Below are positions 2,224 through 3,253 of a DNA stretch of 64,000 nt, piece after piece. The translations under genes were made by a program, and so were the position numbers. Every line of letters starts with the position of its first letter. The first letter of the stretch is position 1. The notes under the pieces are model-generated. The model had not been told where the DNA came from. It saw only the letters and a program-made list of their open reading frames with translations, and made no database searches. The DNA comes from Gemmatimonadaceae bacterium (lineage in GTDB: Bacteria > Gemmatimonadota > Gemmatimonadetes > Gemmatimonadales > Gemmatimonadaceae): positions 124,001-188,000 of the forward strand of contig DASYSS010000017.1 in assembly GCA_036003045.1 (NCBI GenBank), given 5' to 3'.

Positions 2224-2255
2224 TACTTGACGCACAGACGTGCGCCAAGTATAAT
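2224..2255 (+). promoter_or_regulatory. Transposase promoter embedded in a terminal-repeat-like palindrome
   Basis: TTGACG (2227-2232), a 17-base spacer and a perfect TATAAT (2250-2255) form a near-consensus sigma-70 promoter. The predicted start of transcription falls at or next to the transposase ATG (2261), so the mRNA would be leaderless. The same bases form an inverted pair, TACTTGACGCAC (2224-2235) and GTGCGCCAAGTA (2240-2251). Both arms match the core of the element's terminal repeats (the second exactly). This suggests that the transposase binds and represses its own promoter. Confidence 0.7.
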
Positions 2256-2260
2256 ATTAC

Positions 2261-3253
2261 ATGGCCAACCGCAAAGCTGGAACCGCCAAAACCGCCGTCC
2301 TCGCCAATCTCCCACGGGCATGCTCGGACGAGCGCACCGCCGTTGAGTTCTTCGAGGCGCAACGTTGGGGTTCAGCCCCCAACTGCCCGCATTGCGGCGA
2401 TACGGACGTCGTAATGATGAAAGCGAAAGACGGTTCCCGGAATGCCCGGTATCTCTGGCGGTGTCACGGTTGCAAGCAACAGTTCACCGTCAAAGTCGGG
2501 ACGATTATGGAAGGCTCGCCTGTTCCGCTGCGCCACTGGGCATACGCTTTCTATGAAGCGTGCAAGTCCAAGAAGGGCGTCAGCGCGAAAGAAATCGAGC
2601 GCCAGTGCCACGTCACGTACAAGACCGCCTTGTTCATGATGCATCGCATTCGTTGGGCAATGGCACCAGCGAATGCGAACGAACCGAAGCTCGGGCAGGA
2701 CGGCGGCATCGTCGAATACGATGAAACGTTCGTCGGCGGCAAGCCGCGCGGCCTGCCAAACTACATGGCCCACCTTGGCCATCGGAAAATGGGAATGCGC
2801 CCCGATTTCAAAGAGCGCAAAACCCCGGTGGTCGCCGGCATCGAGCGCGGCGGTCGCGTGAAGGCGCGCGTCGTTGACGACACGAAGGCGGAAACGCTCG
2901 GCGCGTGCGTGCGCGAAATGGTCGATCCGTCAGCGACGCTGATGACCGACGAGAAGCGCGCCTATGAAGCGATTGGTCGCGACTTCGCCGCGCACCACAC
3001 GATCAAACACTATCGCGGACGTTGGGCGGATGGGGATGTGACGACCAACCGCATCGAAGCTTTTTGGGCGCTCCTGAAGCGGCAGATTCTCGGGACGCAC
3101 CACAGCGTCAGCAAGAAGCACCTGCACCGTTACGTCAGCGAGGTGGAGTTCAAGTTCAACACGCGCGGCATGGATGACGGCCAACGCACGGTGCTCGCGA
3201 TTCAGTCGGCCGACAACAAGCGCCTGACCTATCGGAAGCAGGTGGACGGATGA
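2261..3253 (+). CDS. IS1595-family (ISXO2-like) transposase
   Basis: This 330-residue DDE-type transposase has an N-terminal zinc ribbon (Cys42, Cys45, Cys68, Cys71) for DNA binding, then a helix-turn-helix-like region (about 85-135), then the RNase H-like catalytic core. The visible catalytic residues are Asp154 (EYDETFVGG), Asp230 (LMTDEKRAY), Asn263 and Lys273 (TNRIEAFWALLKR). This is the D-D-N-K set known for the IS1595 group. No frameshift or stop interrupts it, so it should be active on the ends at 1166-1187 and 4722-4743. The ATG lies only 6 bases after the -10 box, with no ribosome site visible, consistent with a leaderless message. The toxin-antitoxin operon is divergent from it across a 108-base control region. 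Confidence 0.95.
   Translation: MANRKAGTAKTAVLANLPRACSDERTAVEFFEAQRWGSAPNCPHCGDTDVVMMKAKDGSRNARYLWRCHGCKQQFTVKVGTIMEGSPVPLRHWAYAFYEACKSKKGVSAKEIERQCHVTYKTALFMMHRIRWAMAPANANEPKLGQDGGIVEYDETFVGGKPRGLPNYMAHLGHRKMGMRPDFKERKTPVVAGIERGGRVKARVVDDTKAETLGACVREMVDPSATLMTDEKRAYEAIGRDFAAHHTIKHYRGRWADGDVTTNRIEAFWALLKRQILGTHHSVSKKHLHRYVSEVEFKFNTRGMDDGQRTVLAIQSADNKRLTYRKQVDG

Follow-up and report, generated by a model that had tools for sequence, protein, structure and literature searches.

In IS1, the promoter of the transposition genes overlaps the left terminal inverted repeat (IRL), and the repressor InsA, which has the transposase's own zinc-finger/helix-turn-helix DNA-binding part, represses this promoter and competes at both ends (PMC12428005). 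Elements of the IS1595 family normally have 8-bp target duplications and a transposase with an N-terminal zinc finger, the N-terminal zinc ribbon being common to all groups except IS1016 (PMC8101967). In Tn3-family transposons, varied types of toxin-antitoxin genes adjoin the transposition genes (PMC7157771).

The element analyzed here lies near the start of a 64-kb stretch of DNA (the window). As in IS1, its transposase promoter overlaps end sequence. The differences from IS1 are: the position of that sequence, which is the terminal IRL itself in IS1 and an internal, two-armed copy far from the IRL in the window element; and the proteins involved, which in IS1 are a separate repressor, InsA, and an InsAB' transposase that needs a frameshift, whereas the window element has a single transposase reading frame. 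In Tn3-family toxin-antitoxin transposons, tnpA is regulated by a resolvase at res; no resolvase was identified in the window element, and the transposase is the proposed regulator. Judged from sequence, the putative end-based self-control is of a known kind, and its internal, end-derived two-copy promoter layout was found described in none of the IS1595-family papers located, a search that did not take in the founding 2009 description and so leaves absence unproven.

A complete IS1595-family element and its passengers

The element spans 1166-4743 (3578 bp) and is present as a single copy in its own genome. Its 22-bp ends, the IRL GGGAAGTGTGTACTTGGCGCAC (1166-1187, plus strand) and the right terminal inverted repeat (IRR) GGGAACTATGTACTTGCCGCAC (4722-4743, minus strand), share the motif GGGAA-N5-TACTTG-N-CGCAC and are flanked by an 8-bp target duplication, CCTATTCT, whose copies at 1158-1165 and 4744-4751 match at 8/8 positions. 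The left and right repeats are identical at 19 of 24 positions. The transposase (330 residues; 2261-3253, plus strand) contains a DDE domain (Pfam DDE_Tnp_IS1595, 3.6e-41, 141 bits against a cut-off of 27; NCBIfam transpos_IS1595, 185 bits against 75) and an N-terminal zinc ribbon (Zn_ribbon_IS1595, 6.9e-10, 39 bits against 25.4). The DDE domain, zinc ribbon, 8-bp duplication and terminal inverted repeats are those of the IS1595 family. An IS1/IS1595 N-terminal zinc domain, common to IS1595 transposases, is sub-threshold in this protein (26 bits against 28), the IS1 family transposase model reaches 21 bits against a cut-off of 100, and the single 330-residue frame shows no insA/insB arrangement joined by a frameshift. 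An AlphaFold model of the transposase (mean pLDDT 60.7) was too poor for use.

Between the IRL and the transposase gene, two passenger genes are read from the minus strand. The first encodes an MqsA-family antitoxin-like protein with a zinc finger and a helix-turn-helix (1305-1844; NCBIfam TIGR03830, 77 bits against a cut-off of 61.8; Pfam MqsA, 28 against 30). Upstream of it is a small open reading frame (1829-2152) with an uncertain start, at 2152 or at 2104, the latter leaving a leader; it has no match among the Pfam/NCBIfam-type families searched, and its position suggests a toxin role. In the divergent promoter on the toxin side, a perfect dyad, TCACACTGTGA (2157-2167), lies between a possible -35 box (TTGCCG, 2178-2173) and -10 box (TATTAT, 2156-2151); it is a candidate operator of the MqsA-type antitoxin. 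Behind the transposase gene are a minus-strand frame of no known family (3481-4206), probably related to part of relative L064, and a small plus-strand frame (4251-4520) related to one in L064. Identity between these frames and those of L064 is 35-41%, with no match to a known family. Many toxin-antitoxin-like or defence-like genes occupy the passenger slot of relatives (L011, L012, L016, L063, L066 and L094), which recalls Tn3-family transposons. Outside the element, a gene for a LysR-type regulator (208-1155, minus strand) has its ATG about 11 bp from the left boundary; this insertion has probably cut the gene off from its own promoter.

An end-like palindrome on the transposase promoter

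The intergenic region from which the toxin-side and transposase genes diverge contains the palindrome TACTTGACGCAC-AGAC-GTGCGCCAAGTA (2224-2251), in which the spacer AGAC separates a left arm (2224-2235) from a right arm (2240-2251). This palindrome lies on a near-consensus, plus-strand promoter with a -35 box TTGACG (2227-2232), a 17-nt spacer and a -10 box TATAAT (2250-2255). An earlier note on this DNA had claimed as much, and direct reading of the sequence confirms it. The arrangement of arms and boxes given in that note holds in part: the right arm does reach the -10 box, by its last two bases, which are the first two of TATAAT, but the -35 box sits inside the left arm and not between the arms. 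The right arm fills the spacer between the boxes. On the minus strand it is a second, inverted core copy identical to the left-end core, matching the IRL (1176-1187) at 12 of 12 positions, as the note had stated, and at 13 of 13 with the next base. The left arm matches either end at 11 of 12 positions. As GGGAA precedes this arm at an end-like spacing, the segment 2214-2235 (GGGAATTTGCTACTTGACGCAC, plus strand) fits the whole 22-bp end motif with 0 mismatches, and the TTGACG of this internal copy of the end is the -35 box.

The two-arm pattern, with three mismatches allowed, occurs once in the 64 kb and in 0 of 100 shuffles, and none is expected by chance. Of 394 genomes of the class, 3 contain a degenerate promoter-dyad pattern (at most one mismatch), in every case at the start of a related transposase gene, with 0 control hits; a pattern scan of viral contigs gave no match.

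Transposase relatives were drawn from Gemmatimonadota, Planctomycetota and Betaproteobacteria genomes and from viral contigs, and their ends were located from inverted repeats, which 8-bp duplications accompany in most cases. An end-like palindrome over the -35/-10 boxes is present in 18 elements, namely that of the window and some 17 diverse relatives from Gemmatimonadota, Planctomycetota, Betaproteobacteria and viral contigs; in some of these the right arm alone is clear. The right arm begins 13 nt after the start of the -35 box in 12/18. In L064, L065, L068 and L090 the palindrome is one-armed or degenerate. The transposase genes of four relatives (L016, L019, L023 and L043) contain frameshifts or stops, and the palindrome is still present in the two inspected, L016 and L019.

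The distance between this promoter and the start codon is less constant. In the window, the ATG at 2261 stands 5 nt past the -10 box, and a spacing of 5-6 nt is shared with about nine of the 17 relatives, consistent with the leaderless start proposed in the earlier note. Six other relatives have the ATG 19-40 nt after the -10 box, some with sequence resembling a ribosome site, and for these a leaderless start does not hold. The short spacing tracks lineage only roughly, and the self-repression mechanism does not need it. The further suggestion that weak translation limits transposition found no support. A good -10 box lies just before the start in 2 of 40 long open reading frames of the window, too few to judge whether the host has a general leaderless habit.

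Covariation of the arms with the element's own ends

The comparison with related elements proposed in the earlier note is informative beyond the presence of the palindrome, as the right arm covaries with the ends of the element that carries it. With the arms of 24 elements placed by best match, the agreement of right arms with their own ends sums to 222, against 195.6±5.1 when shuffled (0/20,000). When arms are placed by the ends of other elements only, the sums are 219 against 189.6±5.6 for all 24 elements and 178 against 150.5±5.1 for 18 elements chosen for a recognisable arm (0/20,000 in each case). A partial Mantel test given transposase distance yields r=0.47 for the 18 elements (0/10,000) and 0.22 for all 24 (231/10,000). 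Phylogeny is partly controlled in these tests, and the AAA group counts as one event.

Individual elements show the same relationship. Arms in AAA accompany ends in AAA; in L013, CTCAA accompanies CTCAA; and L019 has CAA where its kin mostly have CAC. In L094, the left end and the arm are both CCCTTTACGCAA (12/12), and the ends of its sister L092 are TACTTTACGCAA. The tree suggests that arm and end have changed together more than once (the AAA group, L013, L019, and L094 relative to L092). There are exceptions: the arms of L062 and L066 do not track their own ends, and agreement in L011, L018 and L095 reaches 8-9/12 only. Covariation of the left arm is weak (639/20,000), because the -35 box constrains it.

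Covariation of this kind points to one shared binder, for which the transposase is the obvious candidate. With arms and ends being sites of one kind, binding by the transposase and repression of its own gene, as the earlier note had proposed, is the best reading. Here, a probability of roughly 0.75 is given to the proposal that the palindrome would serve as both promoter and operator of the transposase gene, comprising an internal left-end copy and an inverted core copy bound by the transposase for self-repression, and that this arrangement would derive from a promoter borne by the IRL.

Other readings, proposed mechanism and origin

An alternative use of the internal site is transposition itself. 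The site could be mainly a third working end, at which the transposase would pair 2214 with the IRR and move its gene while leaving the toxin-antitoxin pair behind; or transposition could be limited directly by the arms, acting as a decoy or a place of assembly. The fit of 2214-2235 to the full motif, GGGAA included, is what such an end would show, and L016 and L019 keep 6/10 positions of the outer end part. Across relatives, however, the outer part beside the inner arm averages 3.3/10 against a background of 2.7; the window element's own genome yielded no copy that uses the internal end; and placement on the promoter boxes better fits regulation. This reading is accordingly considered improbable. 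A specific form of it, in which 2214 pairs with the right end to move a 2.5-kb transposase part and the same promoter-repressing binding chooses between the two forms, is more doubtful still. A full inner end was rejected as a general feature, and the earlier note's view that the site mimics an end holds in part: it applies to the inner core, whereas the outer domain is not conserved beside the inner arm in relatives, although the window copy does have GGGAA. As the outer part is not conserved, the site probably serves for binding and not for cleavage, with the window element, L016 and L019 as possible exceptions for their own group.

A shared binder would be unnecessary if promoter constraint accounted for the resemblance, with TTGAC occurring in the ends by chance and the spacer similarity being inherited. 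The left arm does overlap the -35 box, and related elements share ancestry. The right arm, however, lies almost wholly in the spacer, outside the promoter boxes; its covariation persists with transposase distance controlled; and, compared with L092, L094 shows the same change at both sites. Constraint alone is thus a distinctly poor candidate.

The binder could instead be the passenger antitoxin, with the palindrome as its operator and the transposase gene co-regulated. This protein has a helix-turn-helix domain, and its operon is transcribed divergently out of the intergenic region that holds the palindrome. But carriers of the palindrome hold differing passengers (MqsA type, PIN/DUF5615 with DUF433, SocA/Panacea, IrrE-HTH, Fic and Schlafen AlbA_2), and L015, L094, L096 and L098 have nothing between the IRL and the transposase gene. 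As passengers differ while the palindrome stays, the antitoxin is unlikely as a general binder. The arms, moreover, track element ends, and the toxin-side promoter has its separate dyad. Taken in aggregate, these observations make an antitoxin operator highly unlikely. That a nested insertion or a minimal element left 2224-2251 behind is barely credible and was rejected: the arms are oriented as a left and a right end, but the whole segment measures 28 bp, no duplication of a target was seen on its flanks, and its promoter position is kept in diverse elements.

Transposase self-repression would likely involve: an internal left-end copy that supplies the -35 box, with the inverted core copy occupying the spacer; binding of both arms by the transposase through the N-terminal DNA-binding region that it would also use at the ends; and blocking of RNA polymerase at the transposase's own promoter. 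Transposase levels would then stay low after the element is established.

Elements without the palindrome suggest how this arrangement may have arisen. In 10 such relatives, TTGAC lies at offset 13 of the IRL and is followed at exactly 17 nt by TANNNT; of the 11 IRRs with TTGAC, one has TANNNT at 17 nt. In palindrome elements, the outer ends mostly lack TTGAC (TTGGCG, TTGCCG, TTTACG or TTAACG) and the inner copy has it. It thus appears that an IS1-like end promoter was retained in the form of an internal copy, and we infer that the change ran from IRL promoter to internal copy. Probably, the IRL-borne promoter that compact relatives use was retained, or was copied to an inner position, as passengers came between the IRL and the transposase gene.

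If this reading is correct, a group of IS1595-type transposons in several phyla would regulate their transposase through a built-in copy of their own ends. This would explain how control of expression survives the separation of the gene from the end by passengers, and it would offer a route to predicting transposase binding sites and operators from sequence only.
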